Below are positions 16,640-61,612 of a stretch of DNA of 64,000 bases, in pieces. Under the pieces are notes generated by a model, which did not search any database, was not told the DNA's origin, and saw only the letters and a program-made list of their open reading frames with translations. The position numbers were made by a program, and so were the translations under genes. Location: assembly GCF_028728065.1 (NCBI RefSeq), contig NZ_CP117812.1, positions 1,984,001-2,048,000 on the forward strand, read 5' to 3'. Source of the stretch: Lentisphaera profundi (GTDB lineage: Bacteria > Verrucomicrobiota > Lentisphaeria > Lentisphaerales > Lentisphaeraceae). Positions within the stretch are counted from its first letter, which is position 1, and every line of letters starts with the position of its first letter.

Positions 16640-18181
16640 ATGAATGAAATAAATCACTTTATTGATCAAGTAAAAGCAAGGCTCCTGAAAGCCCGCTTTG
16701 CGACCTTGCTCGGCCCTAGTCTACTCGGCTTATGTATCATCAACTTATTAATCGCCCTCTACTTTGTCTCCCAGGGTTATAAAGTTGAGACCAAGCTACT
16801 GCTCTTGCCTACAGTCCTTATTGCTCTAGGCTATATTATTTTTAGTGTATTAAAGAAGCCTACTAAAAAAGAAGCGGCTGATTATGCGGATTCATTCTTT
16901 GATTTGCGCAATGCTTTAAGCTCCCATTTGGATTTCCTCTCTCGTGAAGCCACTGACGACACTCAAAAACAATTTCATCAGCTCCAGCTCCAGCAAACCA
17001 GTCAGCTTTGCCAAGGTCAAAAAATAGCCGCTATTCCCGTACGTTTTTCAGCCAAAAAAATAATTGCTTCATTACTCTTAATCATCACCACTTTAGTCCT
17101 TTGTTCATTTGATGACTCAGATGAAATCAAAGCACAAAAACTCTTGGCACAAAGCACTTTAGAAACCAGTACTCAAAACAAAAAAGATCTTGAAGAAACT
17201 ATCGAAGAACTGCAAGAAAGCATGACTGAAGAAGAACGGAAACTCTTTAAATCTACCAAGATCAAGCAAGTCCTCAAGAATATTGAATCCACTGAGAATA
17301 AACTCGACGCTTTGCGCCAATACGCAAAATTAGAAAAAGAGATCTCCTCGCTCGGGGATAAAATGAATACCAAAAATGATAAAAAACTTCTCGATGAAAT
17401 CTCTCGTGAACTCGAGAAAAATCGCGCCACAAACAAAATGGGCAAGATGTTCGCTAATAAGCAATACAAGGATGCCGCCAAAGAACTCAAAGATAAAATG
17501 AAGGCGCTTCAAGATGCACTTAAAAAGAGCGAACAAAATCAAGCCTCGAAAGAAGCTCAGAAATTAGCGAATGAAATGAAAAACATGAGTCAAAAGATGC
17601 AAGAGGCCGCCAAAAATCTCAAGGCTAATAATAGCACAATGAAGATGGATATTAGTAAAATGGCTGAGCTCAGTAAAAAGCTATCGGATAATATCTGTAA
17701 AAATCCCAAGCAGTGCAATATGGGTGAAGCGAAAGAATGTAGTGGAGATATGAAAAAAGCTGTACTTAGTCTTTGCGATAAATTAGACGAAAATGAAACG
17801 AAGAATCTCTTTATGGCAAAACTCGACAAAATGCAAGAAGCCTTAGCCATGTCACAAGCCAAAATGAATGGCATGTCACAAATGCAAGGCATGCAAATGG
17901 CGAAAGGCGTGGGTGCAGGAAGTCAGGACTCAAAAAACACCACCACACAAACGATTGATACCGCTTACGATACTCAACTAAAAGGGCAACAGGGAGAAGG
18001 CAGTTCTTTAACTCAAATAGAACAAGCCAGTAGTGGAACAGGCATTTCTCGAACCACTGACCCTTCCAATAAACAGATCGAATACAAGCGCCAAATGGAA
18101 TCCTTTATTGAACAAGAAAATATACCCGAAGCCATGAAGTCCGGCGTCAAAGAATACTTTAAACGAATTCACAAAGATTAG
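16640..18181 (+). CDS. Coiled-coil membrane protein of the MoxR operon
   Basis: 513 residues. Two hydrophobic segments lie at about residues 20-42 and 48-70 and a third at about 137-155 (IIASLLLIITTLVLCSF). After that comes a long, highly charged coiled-coil region (about 165-340), a Met/Gln-rich stretch, and a conserved-looking end (MESFIEQENIPEAMKSGV). It starts 10 nt after the giant TPR gene with GGTGA as ribosome binding site, and ends 8 nt before the MoxR gene. The layout resembles uncharacterised DUF4175-like proteins of MoxR/VWA operons, but I cannot assign it firmly. It probably anchors the machinery in the inner membrane with its coiled coil on the outer face. Confidence 0.8.
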   Translation: MNEINHFIDQVKARLLKARFATLLGPSLLGLCIINLLIALYFVSQGYKVETKLLLLPTVLIALGYIIFSVLKKPTKKEAADYADSFFDLRNALSSHLDFLSREATDDTQKQFHQLQLQQTSQLCQGQKIAAIPVRFSAKKIIASLLLIITTLVLCSFDDSDEIKAQKLLAQSTLETSTQNKKDLEETIEELQESMTEEERKLFKSTKIKQVLKNIESTENKLDALRQYAKLEKEISSLGDKMNTKNDKKLLDEISRELEKNRATNKMGKMFANKQYKDAAKELKDKMKALQDALKKSEQNQASKEAQKLANEMKNMSQKMQEAAKNLKANNSTMKMDISKMAELSKKLSDNICKNPKQCNMGEAKECSGDMKKAVLSLCDKLDENETKNLFMAKLDKMQEALAMSQAKMNGMSQMQGMQMAKGVGAGSQDSKNTTTQTIDTAYDTQLKGQQGEGSSLTQIEQASSGTGISRTTDPSNKQIEYKRQMESFIEQENIPEAMKSGVKEYFKRIHKD

Positions 18182-51839: not shown

Positions 51840-52475
51840 ATGAATAAAAAATCATTCTCACTAATCGAACTTTTAGTCGTTATTGCTATAATTGGCATCC
51901 TCGCATCACTCATTCTTCCTGCTTTAGGTAAAGCTCGCGCCAAATCTCGTCAGGCTGTTTGTAACTCACAACATAAGCAAATGGGTATGGCTAGCTATAT
52001 GTATAATGACGACAACGAAAATTATATGCCCTCCGCATCTAGCAACGATACCAGCAGTCGTTTAGGCTGGAAAGATCACTTAGTCGTTTATCTTGCAGGT
52101 GAGGTACATCGTAACTACACTGGCGCCGCCCCCTTTCGTTGCCCTGACTCTGAAGTTAAAACAGGCTTTTCCAACCAAGAAGCTGGCACGACTTACAATA
52201 TTAAATTTGGTGACTTTCGATTTAATGCCAAACCAGCAGTAAAAATTACCGATATTGAATCAGCGGTAGAAACAGTTGTTATTGCAGATTCAATCGATGA
52301 TACTTCATGGGTTGATGTCTCTTATAACCTTCCTTCTGAAAATGCCATAGGAAATCGCCATAATGGATCTTTAAATCTTTTATGGGTTGATGGTCATGTT
52401 CAAAGCGCGACTCAAACAGTTATTTCCGCAGGAAAAAATGGTGAACAAGATTACTACTACCTTGTAACTAAATAG
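51840..52475 (+). CDS. Pseudopilin-type protein with H-X9-DG end (paralogue 1)
   Basis: 211 residues. The N-terminal prepilin signal [19 protein letters not shown] (cleavage before Phe, Glu at +5) is followed by a helix and a globular domain. The C-terminal RHNGSLNLLWVDGHV fits the H-X9-DG motif common in PVC bacteria. Such proteins are exported and probably assembled by, or pass through, a type II secretion/type IV pilus-like system. TGGAG lies about 8 nt before the ATG. Sequence is less similar to paralogues 2 and 3 than these are to each other. Confidence 0.94.
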   Translation: MNKKSFSLIELLVVIAIIGILASLILPALGKARAKSRQAVCNSQHKQMGMASYMYNDDNENYMPSASSNDTSSRLGWKDHLVVYLAGEVHRNYTGAAPFRCPDSEVKTGFSNQEAGTTYNIKFGDFRFNAKPAVKITDIESAVETVVIADSIDDTSWVDVSYNLPSENAIGNRHNGSLNLLWVDGHVQSATQTVISAGKNGEQDYYYLVTK

Positions 52476-53890: not shown

Positions 53891-54550
53891 ATGAAAAAGA
53901 ATTTCACACTCATCGAACTCTTAGTCGTTATTGCTATCATCGGTATACTCGCATCACTTCTCCTCCCTGCACTTGGCAAGGCACGTAAAAAATCACAACA
54001 AGCTGTTTGTGCCTCGCAACAGAAGCAAATTGGCACGGCTATTTTCATGTACGTGGAAGATAATGATTACTATATGCCCACCGTTAATCACCCCACTGCC
54101 TCTACTCGTCTCGGATGGAAAATCTTTATCGCTCCTTACTTAAATTTAAAGACAAATAAACTCGGTGGCGCCCCTTTCCGTTGTCCAAGTAGTGAAATCG
54201 TTGCTGACTGGGAGAATCAAAGTGCTGGAACCTCTTATAACAGCAACTTTGGTGATACACGTTTTTATGATCCTAATGGAAGTGTATCGAATCATCGAAA
54301 ACATAAACCAAAAGAACTTAATGAAATAGAAGATACTGTAGAGACAGTTGTCACTGTAGACTCAATTGACGGTAATGATTGGGCAGAAGTTGCTAAATCA
54401 CTTCCTTCAAGTAACGCAGTGGGTTACAGGCACAATAATGGTCTGAATACATTATGGGTTGATGGTCACGTGACATGGAAGTCAACTGTCTATATGTCTG
54501 CGGGCCGCTATGGAGAGCAAAACTACTATTATATAATGGACAAACCTTAA
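53891..54550 (+). CDS. Pseudopilin-type protein with H-X9-DG end (paralogue 2)
   Basis: 219 residues. Prepilin signal [19 protein letters not shown], a globular domain with [15 protein letters not shown] and [15 protein letters not shown], and [16 protein letters not shown] at the end. Highly similar to paralogue 3 over the full length, showing a tandem duplication. It has a 10-residue insertion ([11 protein letters not shown] region) relative to paralogue 3. An IS30 element sits 25 nt before its start, so native promoter control is probably lost. Its ribosome binding site (GGAAAA) is weaker than that of paralogue 3 (GAGGAA). Confidence 0.94.
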
Positions 54551-54783: not shown

Positions 54784-55425
54784 ATGAAAAAGAAATTTAC
54801 ACTTATCGAGCTTTTAGTCGTTATTGCTATCCTAGGTATACTAGCATCTCTCCTTCTCCCCGCACTTGGCAAGGCCCGCAAAAAATCACAACAAGCTGTT
54901 TGCGTATCTCAGCACAAACAATTGAGTGTGGCAATTCAAATGTATGCCGATGATAATAACGAATATATGCCCACTGTTAATCACCCCGACCAAAACAGTC
55001 GTCTCGGATGGACATTTTTTGTAGCTCCGTACTTAAATTTAAAGACCAACCAAATCGGCGAAGCCCCTTTCCATTGTCCAAGTAGTGAAATCGTTGCCAA
55101 CTGGGAGAGTCAAAAAGCCGGCACCACCTACAACAGTTATTTCGGTGATACACGTTTCAATCAAGCTAATGCAAGGAATACACCCAAACAACTCAGTGAA
55201 ATAGAAGACGCTGTAGAAACCGTTGTTACCGCTGACTCCATTGATGGCGACAACTGGGCTAACGCTGCTAAATCACTCCCTTCAAGCAATGCTATTGGCT
55301 ACCGTCATAATAATGGACTAAATGTATTGTGGGCGGATGGTCACGTTGCATGGAACTCGACTACATATATGTCCGCAGGAGCCAATGGTGAGCAGGACTA
55401 CTATTATATGGTTGATAAACCTTAA
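54784..55425 (+). CDS. Pseudopilin-type protein with H-X9-DG end (paralogue 3)
   Basis: 213 residues. Prepilin signal [19 protein letters not shown], then a globular domain almost parallel to paralogue 2 ([30 protein letters not shown]) and [21 protein letters not shown] lies 7 nt before the ATG. Its leader is intact and shows the sequence that was interrupted by IS30 before paralogue 2. It converges with the nucleotidase gene, 35 nt apart. Confidence 0.94.
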   Translation: MKKKFTLIELLVVIAILGILASLLLPALGKARKKSQQAVCVSQHKQLSVAIQMYADDNNEYMPTVNHPDQNSRLGWTFFVAPYLNLKTNQIGEAPFHCPSSEIVANWESQKAGTTYNSYFGDTRFNQANARNTPKQLSEIEDAVETVVTADSIDGDNWANAAKSLPSSNAIGYRHNNGLNVLWADGHVAWNSTTYMSAGANGEQDYYYMVDKP

Positions 55426-55459: not shown

Positions 55460-56416
55460 TTAATTAAGGTATTTGTGGATCTCAGACTCACTTTTATAAA
55501 GAACCTTGCCTGAAGGCACATATTTGGCCGCTTCTTCTAAATGTAAGTCTTGATCCTCAAAGAAGATATGGGGACGAAAAGCTTTAAGGATTTTGGATTT
55601 ATCTAAACCTCCCAAAAAGAATACTTCGTCCACGTACACGCCCCAAGTCCTCAATGTTTTTATCACTCTCATTTCAGCTGGAGCACTACGTGCCGTTACA
55701 ATGGCAATTCTTACTGGTGATGATTTTACATTAAAAGGTAAGCGACGCTGCAACTGTGATATACTGCGAAGTAACTGTGCGTATGGTCCTTCTGGCATCG
55801 GCACATCTTGATGAGCATCTTCATGGTCAAAAAAGCTCTTCAAGCCTTCCGCTTTGAAAACAATTTCACTACTATCATCAAAAAGAACCGCATCACCATC
55901 GAAAGCTAATCTTACCTGATCAGCTTCAATATTTGAGTTTTTGGGTGGTCCTTGGACAATTGCTGAAGCACAAGTTTTTGCATCAATTACTTTTTGCGCA
56001 TCGCGCACATTAGTAGTCAAAAACAAGTCAACATCATAGGCATCTAAATAAGGCACCACCGATTCACCTCCTGTAAAAGCATGGCGAGTGATATTTAAGT
56101 TATGCCTCCTAATATTATTGAAGACAACCACTCCCGTTTCAGGACTATTTCGAGACATGACAACCACTTCAACAATAGGCGCATCACCCTCTTTTTGATA
56201 TTTATTCAGGCCCAACAAGGCTCTTACTAATGGCATCGCAGTACCATCATCCAAATCATCTTCTTCACGACTCAACATATAGCCACGATAGTTCTCAACT
56301 GCTGTTTCAGGATTTTTCATGAAGGCCTCCTGAAAAACACTATCCGCATCACTCATATCAAATAAAGCTGTCGCTGATACCGCTACGACTAAAGTTTGTC
56401 CTAAATCTACTTTCAC
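55460..56416 (-). CDS. 5'-nucleotidase, cytosolic cN-I type
   Basis: 318 residues. Features of the cN-I-type 5'-nucleotidase family (PF06189-like): LVVAVSATALFDMSDAD at the N-terminus, VVMSRNSPETGVVVFNNI, LAFDGDAVLFDD (HAD-like Asp pair), IVTARSAPAEMRVIKTLR and VFFLGGLDKSKILKAFRPHIFFEDQ. It hydrolyses nucleoside monophosphates in the cytosol. The start overlaps the stop of the MurU-AmgK-like gene (ATGA), so the two are coupled. The link might be nucleotide turnover during sugar activation, but this is only inference. Confidence 0.93.
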   Translation of the reverse strand: MKVDLGQTLVVAVSATALFDMSDADSVFQEAFMKNPETAVENYRGYMLSREEDDLDDGTAMPLVRALLGLNKYQKEGDAPIVEVVVMSRNSPETGVVVFNNIRRHNLNITRHAFTGGESVVPYLDAYDVDLFLTTNVRDAQKVIDAKTCASAIVQGPPKNSNIEADQVRLAFDGDAVLFDDSSEIVFKAEGLKSFFDHEDAHQDVPMPEGPYAQLLRSISQLQRRLPFNVKSSPVRIAIVTARSAPAEMRVIKTLRTWGVYVDEVFFLGGLDKSKILKAFRPHIFFEDQDLHLEEAAKYVPSGKVLYKSESEIHKYLN

Positions 56417-58254
56417 TTTTCCCTCGGATTTTTAGCTATCTTGAGTTTTTCTAGAGCCTGATTACTTAAAGTATATAGGGCCGGATAGCTATCTCTCTGT
56501 TGTTCTAAATCTTTGTTTAACATTAATAAGGCTACGGGGATATACTGCTCAAAACTTTTTTTGGCCTTTATTGTACTCAAAAAACCATACGCTCCCAAGG
56601 CTTGCATATGCCGCTGAATTGCACATAAGTCATAATCCTCATGCATGTTTTTTTGACTCTTATCTACGTCCAGCAATTTTTTAAAAAAGTAACTCTTCAA
56701 TTCCTTTTGCATTTCCACAGAATAATTCATATAGGGATCACCAATAAAGGATGCCGCATCATACAAGGATGGACCTTGGTGTGCCCCTTGAAAATCGATT
56801 AAGTAAGCTTGGTCTTTAACAATCATCACATTTTCCGACTGAAAATCTCGATGCATCACCACTTTATTCATATCATTAACTTTCTCTGCTAATGACAAGC
56901 ATTCACGATCGATCTCCGCTTTATTACTTTCATAAGCTTTTTTCAGACCCGCCACTCTAAATATAAAACGCTCTAAAAAATATGAGCTCTCCCATAGTAA
57001 TACATCAAGATCAAAAGGTTTATCATCAACGGGCGCTGGTGTATTCTGAAATTTCATCACTTCGTCTAGGCATGATTTCGCTCCAACAAGCAGCTCATCC
57101 TCAGATTTTCCTTGAGCCCATAGTCGAAAAGTATCATCTCCTAAATCTTCCAAAAGAACTTTCCTCTCTTTTGGATCATGAGAGAGCATTTTTGGTACTT
57201 TCACTCCAGATTTGACGAGCATCTCAGTTATTTTTTGTTGTCGTTCAATTGTCTTGTCAATTACAGAGTAGTGTAAAACCACACCTTCATTGCTACGCCT
57301 GTATATTCTATCCGAGCCCCCATTACCAATCTTTTTCACAGCTTCAAACTGAGGCATCTCTCCCAGTTCAAAGGGTACATTTAGATGGGGCCCCACGACG
57401 CAGTTTGTTAATCGACTGCCATCTGCGACTTTCGCACCACTTAGTAGAATAACATTTGAGAGTCTGACATCCTTTCCTATACTCACAGCTTTTTCGACCA
57501 CACAATAGGAATCAATACGGCAATCCCAGGGGATGCTCAAAGGTTCCGCAAAGAATCGTTGCTCAGACCCTAGACTTGCAAAAACTCCCTGTGCATAGGC
57601 ATTCACGTTCCCTAAATCTAGCCACTCAGATTTTTTCCCTATATCATATACGCCAATCCTTTCTCCGGCCTTAAGGGCTTCTTCCCAATAAGGCACCACA
57701 TGGGATTCTCCTGCCGGTAGATATCCCGAAAATCCTGGCTCATATAATGCCACACAAGCATAGCCATACCAATGAGTCGCACGAGGATCTTTCATCTCTT
57801 TATCAATACAAATGAATTGCTGATCGTCACTCGCACCCACACGTCTTTCATGTACCCTGTCCTGCACTGCTAAAGTCACTAAATTCCCTGAACTCTGATG
57901 GTAGTCTAACATCCCCTTCCAATCAAAATCGGTTAGCACATCACCATTAATTAACAGACTTGTATGTTTACTAAAAAAATCTTGTGCATTCCATAGTGCT
58001 CCACCTGTCCCCAAGAGTTCACGTTCTTCAAACAAGTCATAATCTTTATCCGCGTTCCATTGCTCAAACATTTCTTTTTTATAATGGACATTTAATCCTA
58101 TCTCATTTATATCTAAAGCAATACACACTCGATCAATCATTCGATCAATTAAGCTTTGACCCGCAATTGGTAGCAAAGGCTTAGGGTATAAATCAGTTAC
58201 CGGGCGCAAACGACTACCGTAGCCCGCTGATGCCACAAATAGGTTAATTGACAT
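56413..58254 (-). CDS. Fused sugar-1-phosphate nucleotidyltransferase and sugar kinase (MurU-AmgK-like)
   Basis: 613 residues. The N-terminal half is a nucleotidyltransferase: GYGSRLRPVTDLYPKPLLPI, then LLINGDVLTDFDW. A short left-handed beta-helix follows (about 245-300). The C-terminal half is an aminoglycoside-phosphotransferase-type kinase: VLLEDLGDDTF, VMHRDFQSENVMI and LIDFQGAHQGPSLYDAASF. In Pseudomonas the separate proteins AmgK and MurU phosphorylate MurNAc/GlcNAc at C1 and attach UDP, recycling cell-wall sugars past fosfomycin-sensitive MurA. DFQ-x-A-x-x-GP-x-x-YD is the AmgK hallmark. Here both steps are in one chain with the transferase first. An alternative is a kinase/nucleotidyltransferase for another sugar. 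Confidence 0.85.
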   Translation of the reverse strand: MSINLFVASAGYGSRLRPVTDLYPKPLLPIAGQSLIDRMIDRVCIALDINEIGLNVHYKKEMFEQWNADKDYDLFEERELLGTGGALWNAQDFFSKHTSLLINGDVLTDFDWKGMLDYHQSSGNLVTLAVQDRVHERRVGASDDQQFICIDKEMKDPRATHWYGYACVALYEPGFSGYLPAGESHVVPYWEEALKAGERIGVYDIGKKSEWLDLGNVNAYAQGVFASLGSEQRFFAEPLSIPWDCRIDSYCVVEKAVSIGKDVRLSNVILLSGAKVADGSRLTNCVVGPHLNVPFELGEMPQFEAVKKIGNGGSDRIYRRSNEGVVLHYSVIDKTIERQQKITEMLVKSGVKVPKMLSHDPKERKVLLEDLGDDTFRLWAQGKSEDELLVGAKSCLDEVMKFQNTPAPVDDKPFDLDVLLWESSYFLERFIFRVAGLKKAYESNKAEIDRECLSLAEKVNDMNKVVMHRDFQSENVMIVKDQAYLIDFQGAHQGPSLYDAASFIGDPYMNYSVEMQKELKSYFFKKLLDVDKSQKNMHEDYDLCAIQRHMQALGAYGFLSTIKAKKSFEQYIPVALLMLNKDLEQQRDSYPALYTLSNQALEKLKIAKNPREK

Positions 58255-58451: not shown

Positions 58452-61049
58452 ATGCTCATAGGAGATAAAGTTTTCGAAAGAAAATCTTTTGAAAAAACCG
58501 ACCAAATCATCAGTAACTTTTGTACTCAAGAGTTTCTAAACAAAAATAGCATTATCAGAAATGAGCGCGTTAACAAAACTCTTTTGGAGCTCATTGAATT
58601 GGCTCCCCGTAATTCTTTTTTATTGCGTGAAGTGATTGATTACACAGCCAAAATTACTGAAAGCCATATCTTGGATGGCAAATTTAACATCACCGCCTTT
58701 GAACGCTGGCTCAACCAGCATTCAGGTTTAAATGAAAGTGAGCAATTTGTTATTCGCGGAAAAGTCAGTGGCAAACATATTCCACGAGACGAATACCAGC
58801 TTTATTTCCCCATTGGTCACGACAAGTACTATCCCAATTCTCATTACGTCACCGCGCACAACCCACCTGACTTGGACAGTACCACTGGTTCATTCATTGG
58901 CTGGCTCGATGCGTTCTCATGTAAAGTAGGCCAAACACTTACTGTCTGGAATGTTCCTCAAGGTGAGCCAAGCCCATTAATATCTCATTACTTTAATAAA
59001 ATTTTCACCAATCATGTATTTAGTCGGGTCGCAAAACATAAATCCGTAATTTCTCCTGTGGCCATGGATATCGTGAATCAACACAAACTCATAAGAGTGA
59101 CTGGCGATTCTAACATCCGTGATTTCCAACATGATCGAAATACCAATCATATTATTGTCGTGGATGACGATGGTTACTTCCTTGGTGACTGGCGTGTTAC
59201 CGATGTAGATGCCGTCGGCAGAATCCAGCGTTTACTCAACATCACGATTCATTCCTATGAAAAAGTACTGATATCTACTTTCACTGAGCTCATGAGTCGC
59301 GAAAAGATCACCAGGCAAGAAATCCAAAGCTACCTCGATTCTAGCTTCAATTCTAACCTTAGCAATAGTCACATGAGCCTCCAACGCTATCACCATCATG
59401 ACTGTGAGTTACTAGACCTCTACCTCAAGAAAGCGCTCAAGCTCGAGCATGGTAGCAAAACTAGCTTTTTAGAGTTTTTCCGTTTTATGGACAAAGTTTC
59501 CAAATCCGAATATTGTGAATTTGTTGATTATATGAATTCTTTCCTTACGCCAGAAAATTTTGACTTTCAAAATGAAACTTTCTCACTCGCCACTTCAAAA
59601 ATATTCGCTACATTTAATAAAGCCTTTGATAAACTAAGTTCCTCTATTCAAGCTGGCCGTGATTACTACGACCGCATGGATCTTGCCTTGGCTATTAAAA
59701 AGGACGTCTTAGGTAATACGCCTAACTATGTAAGCACCAAAGCTGAACCTACTGAGATCAAGCATAAACTTCGAGGTTACCAGCACGTAACTGTTTGCTT
59801 TCCTGACAAGAAACAAAGAATTATACCCGTAGGCGTCATTCATCGCTCAGATATGGTTAATGATTCTTTAGGTTCGGTAACTTTACGTGATTTCTGTAAC
59901 CGCGATGAAATCAAAATTGGCCCTTCTGTCCGTACTATCTCAGCTATTGATCACCACAGAGCTGAAATCGACTCCAGAGAGTGTATGACTATCACCATTG
60001 CAGATGTTCAGTCAGTCAATGTGCTCATTGCTGAACAAGCTTTCACCATTAATGATCGTTACGGCTGCCAGAATCAGAGCCTTCACTCTATTGATGATCA
60101 AATGGATATGATTACCAACAAAACCGACCCTCATTCTAAAGATTTCTCACTCCTAAATCGTCTTGTCCAAAAGAAGCAAGCCATATATAAGTCTGGTGTG
60201 AAATACTTTATTAACCCCGAAAGAGAATTCATTGAATATTCTTTAATGCTTAATGCCATTATTGACGACACCGATTTATTTAACAAATGTGCATGGCGAG
60301 ACCTGACTGCCATTGCCAATCTTGTCAATCGAATGAAAAGCATTATCTGCCGCACAGAAATCCAAGTATTAAATCTTGATAAATATAACCGTTCTTCAAA
60401 AACCGACCTTAAAGCCGCGATTAATGAATTCCTCCACAACGAAGATGTCACATCTTTCTACAAAAATATTTTCGATCATAGAGAAGTTCTCATCAGTCAA
60501 TGGCTAAGTAATAGTAAAGAGCACCAGTTTTGTTATGAAGATAGAAAGATTCAAAATGAATTTTGCGCGATTAGCCAACTCAAATTATTCCCCAATAACC
60601 GAAAATGCTTTAAGCAACATCGTGATACATTACTCGCCAACTGGCTCAATAGTAACGAAGTGGTTGCAAGGAAATCTTCCGTAGTTGATTTCTACATGCA
60701 AATGAACTCCACGATTGAAACGAAAAGCAGCCAAAGCTCTAGCACTGATGAATATGATGAAATATGGATCCGTATAAGTTCAAATAGCGAACAAGCCGAG
60801 TCGCGTTTACGTCTATTCCTTAGTACATTTACTCAGTCAGCTAAGTACCCCGACATTATTGAACGAGTGACTATTGAAGGTGGCAATGCTGAAGAAAACA
60901 AGAGTCTCAAGCAAATCGTTACTAATCACTTAAAAATAGCCTGTACAATTAAAAAAACTGCAGACAAACGTTCTATCATTTGTCTCACAATAAAACAGAG
61001 CAGTCTAAATAGTCGGAAGGCAGACATTACCCCATTCTTACCTAAATAA
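58452..61049 (+). CDS. DHH-superfamily protein with very large internal insertion
   Basis: 865 residues. Motif I resembles that of DHH/Mn-pyrophosphatases: AHNPPDLDSTTG (H136, D140, D142, S143). Motif III is AIDHHRAEI (D500, H501, H502), with IADVQSVNVLIAE after it. Motif IV is MLNAIIDDTDLF (D605, D606). Between motifs I and III lie about 360 residues instead of the usual 70-100, including VVDDDGYFLGDWRVTDVDA at 236-254 and largely helical sequence. The last 250 residues are unrecognised. AAGGAT precedes the ATG. It probably hydrolyses a phosphoester or pyrophosphate-type bond with Mn2+, but the substrate is unknown. No neighbour helps. Confidence 0.7.
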   Translation: MLIGDKVFERKSFEKTDQIISNFCTQEFLNKNSIIRNERVNKTLLELIELAPRNSFLLREVIDYTAKITESHILDGKFNITAFERWLNQHSGLNESEQFVIRGKVSGKHIPRDEYQLYFPIGHDKYYPNSHYVTAHNPPDLDSTTGSFIGWLDAFSCKVGQTLTVWNVPQGEPSPLISHYFNKIFTNHVFSRVAKHKSVISPVAMDIVNQHKLIRVTGDSNIRDFQHDRNTNHIIVVDDDGYFLGDWRVTDVDAVGRIQRLLNITIHSYEKVLISTFTELMSREKITRQEIQSYLDSSFNSNLSNSHMSLQRYHHHDCELLDLYLKKALKLEHGSKTSFLEFFRFMDKVSKSEYCEFVDYMNSFLTPENFDFQNETFSLATSKIFATFNKAFDKLSSSIQAGRDYYDRMDLALAIKKDVLGNTPNYVSTKAEPTEIKHKLRGYQHVTVCFPDKKQRIIPVGVIHRSDMVNDSLGSVTLRDFCNRDEIKIGPSVRTISAIDHHRAEIDSRECMTITIADVQSVNVLIAEQAFTINDRYGCQNQSLHSIDDQMDMITNKTDPHSKDFSLLNRLVQKKQAIYKSGVKYFINPEREFIEYSLMLNAIIDDTDLFNKCAWRDLTAIANLVNRMKSIICRTEIQVLNLDKYNRSSKTDLKAAINEFLHNEDVTSFYKNIFDHREVLISQWLSNSKEHQFCYEDRKIQNEFCAISQLKLFPNNRKCFKQHRDTLLANWLNSNEVVARKSSVVDFYMQMNSTIETKSSQSSSTDEYDEIWIRISSNSEQAESRLRLFLSTFTQSAKYPDIIERVTIEGGNAEENKSLKQIVTNHLKIACTIKKTADKRSIICLTIKQSSLNSRKADITPFLPK

Positions 61050-61222: not shown

Positions 61223-61612
61223 ATGTCACTAAAAAAATACATACTCCCACTTGGGGAAGTTTCCTCTGTGGCAGAAGCCGCGAGTCTACAAGAGGCATCT
61301 ATAAAGTTAGAAAAAGACCCACAAAGCTCTTTCTACATTGCACATCTTGATGATCAAATCTCACTTCCCGAGAACCTTCATATTTTAGAAATAAAAGAAT
61401 CTAAAATTAGCCCTGCCAATGAAGATAAATCTGGCGATGATAAAAATGCCGCACTAGCTCCCCAAGGAGATGGCAACATGCTCGACTTACATTTGCGCTT
61501 CCATCTTCCTCCCGGACTCGATCGTAGCTACTTTGAAACGGCACTTCACTCAAAGATCTCTCAAGCTATTGAAGCCATTATAAATGAAGGCGATTCTTCA
61601 GAGCAAGAATAA
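61223..61612 (+). CDS. Hypothetical protein, small and acidic
   Basis: 129 residues, GGAG 6 nt before the ATG. No signal peptide or membrane segment. There is a disordered, Asp/Lys-rich middle (about 70-88), then a well-formed C-terminal stretch (LDLHLRFHLPPGLDRSYFETALHSKI) that may be a small alpha-beta fold. I recognise no family. A strong terminator follows, so it is expressed alone. Confidence 0.75.
   Translation: MSLKKYILPLGEVSSVAEAASLQEASIKLEKDPQSSFYIAHLDDQISLPENLHILEIKESKISPANEDKSGDDKNAALAPQGDGNMLDLHLRFHLPPGLDRSYFETALHSKISQAIEAIINEGDSSEQE

Follow-up and report, generated by a model that had tools for sequence, protein, structure and literature searches.

In the window, a 64,000-nucleotide stretch of the Lentisphaera profundi contig NZ_CP117812.1 (positions 1,984,001 to 2,048,000), an open reading frame encodes a protein of 865 aa which is probably (we would put it at about 0.8) a CBS-domain inorganic pyrophosphatase (CBS-PPase) of the Mn/Co-dependent family II that has strongly diverged, and not a new class of DHH enzyme. 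Its pyrophosphatase function, its regulation by nucleotides and its substrate are those that we infer from sequence comparison. The host genome comprises two contigs (5.46 Mb) and belongs to the same genus as Lentisphaera marina. Full-length homologues with 48-83% identity to the window protein occur as one copy per genome in all six genomes (86-96% complete) of the marine family Lentisphaeraceae and the motif residues are invariant among the six, which together mark the frame as a real gene and not a chance one. Outside the Lentisphaeraceae, no homologue was found in the genomes sampled from the phylum or in the viral contigs searched, and a wider contig search, which covered other phyla by the strict patterns of a single-protein query, recovered only the close L. 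marina homologue. PDB searches gave nothing useful. None of the curated family models of Pfam and NCBIfam reaches its cut-off on the window protein or on any other of the six members, and the Pfam matches to BHD_1 and IraP obtained for the former were dismissed as weak and unsupported. The gene, its parts and the gene that follows it are located as listed below.

58452-61049, + strand: the 865-aa protein, diverged CBS-domain family II pyrophosphatase-like, an open reading frame with homologues in 6/6 Lentisphaeraceae genomes and a CBS-PPase profile match
58452-58847, + strand: N-terminal extension of no known family (residues 1-132), without Pfam match and without counterpart in the ordinary CBS-PPases of the joint alignment
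58854-58880, + strand: DHH motif I, AHNPPDLDS (residues 135-143, with H136, D140 and D142), invariant and aligned with GHRNPDIDS of the CBS-PPases in both alignment modes
59085-59207, + strand: CBS1-like domain (residues 212-252, VVDDDGYFLGDWRVTD), co-aligned with CBS1 of the CBS-PPases
59208-59696, + strand: inter-CBS block (residues 253-415), which the joint alignment puts where DRTGG would lie, helical in low-confidence models
59718-59861, + strand: CBS2-like domain (residues 423-470, PVGVIHRSD), Pfam CBS in five of the six members (best E 0.0043)
59880-59903, + strand: motif II equivalent VTLRDFCN (residues 477-484, with the invariant D480), DHN changed to DFC, placed by the hhalign alignment and spanned by the hmmsearch range
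59943-59957, + strand: DHH motif AIDHH (residues 498-502), invariant, from the joint alignment
59958-60254, + strand: stretch from DHH to motif IV (residues 503-601), longer than in ordinary CBS-PPases
60255-60281, + strand: motif IV, AIIDDTDLF (residues 602-610, with D606), invariant, co-aligned in E-INS-i and not in L-INS-i
60366-61046, + strand: DHHA2-like C-terminal half (residues 639-865) with K699 in EDRKIQN and R855 and K856 in NSRKADITPFLP, invariant, aligned with GDRKDY and SRKKQ only in E-INS-i
61223-61612, + strand: small protein of 129 aa and of no recognised type, directly downstream of the pyrophosphatase-like gene and adjoining it in all of the five further Lentisphaeraceae loci examined

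Canonical family II pyrophosphatases have a length of about 310 aa and no CBS insert. With such an enzyme, e.g., PpaC of Bacillus subtilis (DHH + DHHA2), the Lentisphaeraceae protein shares the catalytic motifs and the substrate-binding residues K and SRK. With the CBS-PPases (PRK14869 / NF011442, e.g., of Clostridium perfringens and Desulfitobacterium hafniense), which as a class are tetramers under allosteric control by AMP, ADP, ATP and ApnA, it has the whole order of DHH-N, CBS1, insert, CBS2, motif II, DHH, motif IV and DHHA2 in common, as well as eleven active-site residues and the spacing from motif I through DHH. In contrast to them, it is about 300 residues longer due to the N-terminal extension and to expansions after DHH and in DHHA2, it features no DRTGG match, DFC instead of DHN, SRKAD instead of SRKKQ and an altered CBS1 loop, and it lies beyond the reach of the curated models. 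The DRTGG domain is usually situated between the CBS domains of CBS-PPases and is missing in some of them (PMC11172384), and no high-resolution structure of a full-length CBS-PPase was available according to a paper of 2020 (PMC7226116) and a review of 2024 (PMC11210485). A long CBS-PPase of 670 aa was described for Giardia intestinalis (XP_001709328.2); with its reported 30-37% identity to bacterial CBS-PPases (PMC11210485) it is far less diverged than the Lentisphaeraceae family, a distinction drawn from the published description.

The relationship to CBS-PPases was assessed against 36 ordinary representatives drawn from the DHHA2 proteins of the phylum, which occur in 140 of its 289 genomes, mostly as open frames of about 550-620 aa. 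Residues 418-560 matched the profile of these 36 sequences in hhalign with E 2.4e-5 and a score of 34.4, against at most 20.9 in 30 column shuffles, in a single run across CBS2, motif II and DHH. The slices around motif I and CBS1 also exceeded the shuffles over short stretches, with the CBS1-like slice scoring 21.9 against a column-shuffled maximum of 14.2 over only 10 columns. Slices of DHHA2 were marginal or not above the shuffles, and that of residues 640-865, only marginally above them, is unconvincing by profile alone. The comparison of the whole family profile with that of the CBS-PPases yielded no match, which is explained by the shallow family profile (Neff 1.8) and its long insertions. 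An HMM of the same 36 sequences recognized the best member with E 1.1e-6 at model positions 251-374, spanning CBS2, motif II and DHH; all six members outscored 1800 shuffled copies, with the window protein being the weakest of them (E 0.13). Much of this signal stems from CBS2 and part of it is a CBS signal, as two MgtE CBS proteins score among the members. The best matches of the family profile outside the Lentisphaeraceae are the CBS domains of proteins which we take, from reading their sequences, to be MgtE-like, and they fall on the CBS2 region. Among the NCBIfam matches of the six members, the best was to PRK14869, a putative Mn-dependent inorganic diphosphatase, at an E of 0.071 that is far from a curated match.

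Alignment of the six members with the 36 reference sequences by MAFFT E-INS-i placed all ten landmarks, nearly all of which had been listed beforehand, in common columns, and L-INS-i retained seven of them while motif IV, K and SRK were lost. The resulting order is motif I, CBS1, CBS2, motif II, DHH, motif IV, DHHA2-type K and SRK. The motifs on which the sequence-only reading was based are present in the frame as quoted (AHNPPDLDS at residues 135-143, VVDDDGYFLGDW at 236-247, AIDHH at 498-502 and AIIDDTDLF at 602-610), and so is the large block that it described between motif I and DHH, with 358 residues separating the D of DHH from the final Asp of motif I. Its idea of an insert, presumably regulatory, at this position holds; what does not hold is the new kind, since the insert corresponds to a diverged CBS...CBS arrangement at the usual site of CBS-PPases, for which the median separation in the phylum is 322. 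The ends of the block called unrecognised are two weak CBS domains, and the Asp-rich stretch attributed to the block itself turned out to be the VVDxDGxxxG turn of CBS1. The second CBS domain is identified by Pfam as well as by profile comparison, and slices around residues 415-520 of two divergent members matched Pfam CBS with E 0.00097 and 0.0018. The first one is weaker and is placed by the alignment and a short profile match, with residues 212-252 giving no Pfam match of their own and the nucleotide motif being altered to GDWRVxD. A family scan of residues 253-415 revealed neither DRTGG nor any other match. Compared with the canonical medians, the distances in the window protein are 103 and 97 residues (motif I to CBS1), 216 and 185 (CBS1 to CBS2), 19 and 19 (CBS2 to motif II) and 20 and 21 (motif II to III), and this close agreement renders the block from motif I to DHH near normal for a CBS-PPase. 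Beyond it, the distances rise to 104 residues from DHH to the Asp of motif IV (median 51), 93 from motif IV to K (56) and 156 from K to SRK (89). Judged from the alignment, what is unusual is the added length at the N-terminus (130 residues), after DHH and in the DHHA2 half.

The active site was compared by means of the residues modelled for a family II enzyme of Shewanella in a computational study of 2026, namely His8, Asp12, Asp14, Asp72, Asp93, His94, His95, Asp146, Lys203, Arg293 and Lys294 (PMC13219714). The equivalents in the joint alignment are H136, D140, D142, D480, D500, H501, H502, D606, K699, R855 and K856, the Shewanella numbers being assigned to the motifs by motif order without aligning the Shewanella sequence. 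All eleven residues are identical in 6/6 members and in 36/36 reference CBS-PPases, and the proposed kinship of the DHH phosphoesterase with Mn-dependent pyrophosphatases stands. Moreover, the roughly 255 residues C-terminal of motif IV, earlier taken to be of unknown type, carry the DHHA2 signature residues K699, R855 and K856; an SRK within the last 25 residues occurred in only 2 of 268 decoy open reading frames. Pfam DHH was matched in two of the six members (best E 0.043), and Pfam DHHA2 (PF02833) had no match in the proteins or elsewhere in the six genomes, for which reason the assignment to family II rests on motifs, order and architecture. Co-location of the motifs is likewise a matter of homology, as AF2 gave unusable models both for the single sequence of 865 aa (pLDDT 34) and, with the L. 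marina homologue added, for residues 119-642 (pLDDT 30).

According to this assignment, the DHH domain would contain a binuclear or trinuclear Mn/Co site with ligands among H136, D140, D142, D480, D500, H501 and D606, and K699, R855 and K856 of the C-terminal DHHA2-like domain would close over PPi, which a metal-bridging water or hydroxide would split into two phosphates. The CBS pair within the DHH domain may sense adenine nucleotides or dinucleotides and thus raise or lower the activity with the energy state, while the DRTGG domain would have been lost or another block have taken its place. In cells running PPi-dependent phosphofructokinase and PPDK, a pyrophosphatase gated in this way might keep PPi from being wasted at low energy. 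The former enzyme scored above its cut-off in 6/6 genomes and the latter in 5/6, with a partial match in the sixth. A regulated pyrophosphatase fits such a PPi-using glycolysis, and these cells could also cope without one. Standard searches for DHHA2, family I and membrane pyrophosphatases gave no match in any of the six genomes, in which HAD-type (family III) pyrophosphatases may occur. The argument from the absence of another pyrophosphatase is weakened by the fact that PPi-dependent phosphofructokinase and PPDK could deal with PPi.

Two readings keep the CBS-PPase descent and alter the function. Since DHN became DF(C/L) in 6/6 members, DFL in one of them, and SRKKQ became SRKAD in 6/6, with SRK kept and KQ replaced by AD, the preference for substrate or metal may have shifted. 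In the wider form, which taken as a whole is a tentative and rather unlikely proposal, the CBS-PPase lineage would have been rebuilt within one bacterial family by a new N-terminal domain, a new block replacing DRTGG, the DFC and SRKAD changes and a dedicated partner gene, and would hydrolyse or sense something other than the ordinary pair of PPi and adenine nucleotide. In the narrower form, the main substrate of the descendant would be a different phosphoanhydride or phosphodiester (polyphosphate, dinucleotides or a sugar nucleotide), with the CBS pair still being regulatory. The fixed substitutions, the large expansions in the substrate-binding half, the conserved family-specific downstream gene of no assigned function and the possible consumption of PPi by phosphofructokinase and PPDK all speak for such a shift; the retention of every pyrophosphatase active-site residue and the lack of another recognisable pyrophosphatase in the six genomes speak against it and make it improbable. 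A diverged CBS-PPase acting on PPi is also preferred over the new DHH class with an unrelated regulatory insert which the sequence-only reading had put forward. Curated models below cut-off, 130 unassigned N-terminal residues and long unassigned blocks would suit that proposal, and it nevertheless appears very unlikely in view of the CBS-PPase profile matches, the conserved order and spacing of the landmarks and the C-terminal SRK. A member of the DHH-DHHA1 branch (exonuclease or phosphodiesterase of the RecJ, NrnA or GdpP type) would have the DHH motifs in common and is hardly credible, given that no DHHA1 family matched, that conservation at the C-terminus concerns the K and SRK typical of DHHA2 and that each genome already features one other strong DHH match of about 570-590 aa, which is the size of RecJ (one of the genomes has a further weak match).

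If the main reading is true, it fills an apparent gap in six genomes which lack a pyrophosphatase in standard searches and yet feature PPi-using glycolytic enzymes. It would further illustrate how far a CBS-PPase can drift with every active-site residue kept, and the naturally altered DHN, SRKKQ, CBS nucleotide loops and DRTGG would offer a ready comparison for studying how the CBS domains exert their control on the active site.

With regard to the surroundings of the gene, the downstream protein of 129 aa has no Pfam match and was not found outside the Lentisphaeraceae in the 289 genomes of the phylum; two further paralogues occur in genome G004. On the other side, window positions 55460-58254 (- strand), divergent from the pyrophosphatase-like gene, carry a fusion of nucleotidyltransferase and APH kinase, MurU-AmgK-like by domain content, next to a 5'-nucleotidase (PF06189); this fusion is kept in the genus Lentisphaera and is not located beside the gene in the examined loci of genus g3. 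Farther upstream, tandem paralogues at 51840-52475, 53891-54550 and 54784-55425 (+ strand) encode type IV pilin-like secreted proteins, and this run varies in the loci of L. marina and genome G002 too. Finally, a short-period repeat at positions 17847-18173 of locus L002, reading VRLQVRLQ / VPLQ on the - strand, lies within a + strand open frame of 836 aa of L. marina which is DNA polymerase III tau-like by its start.
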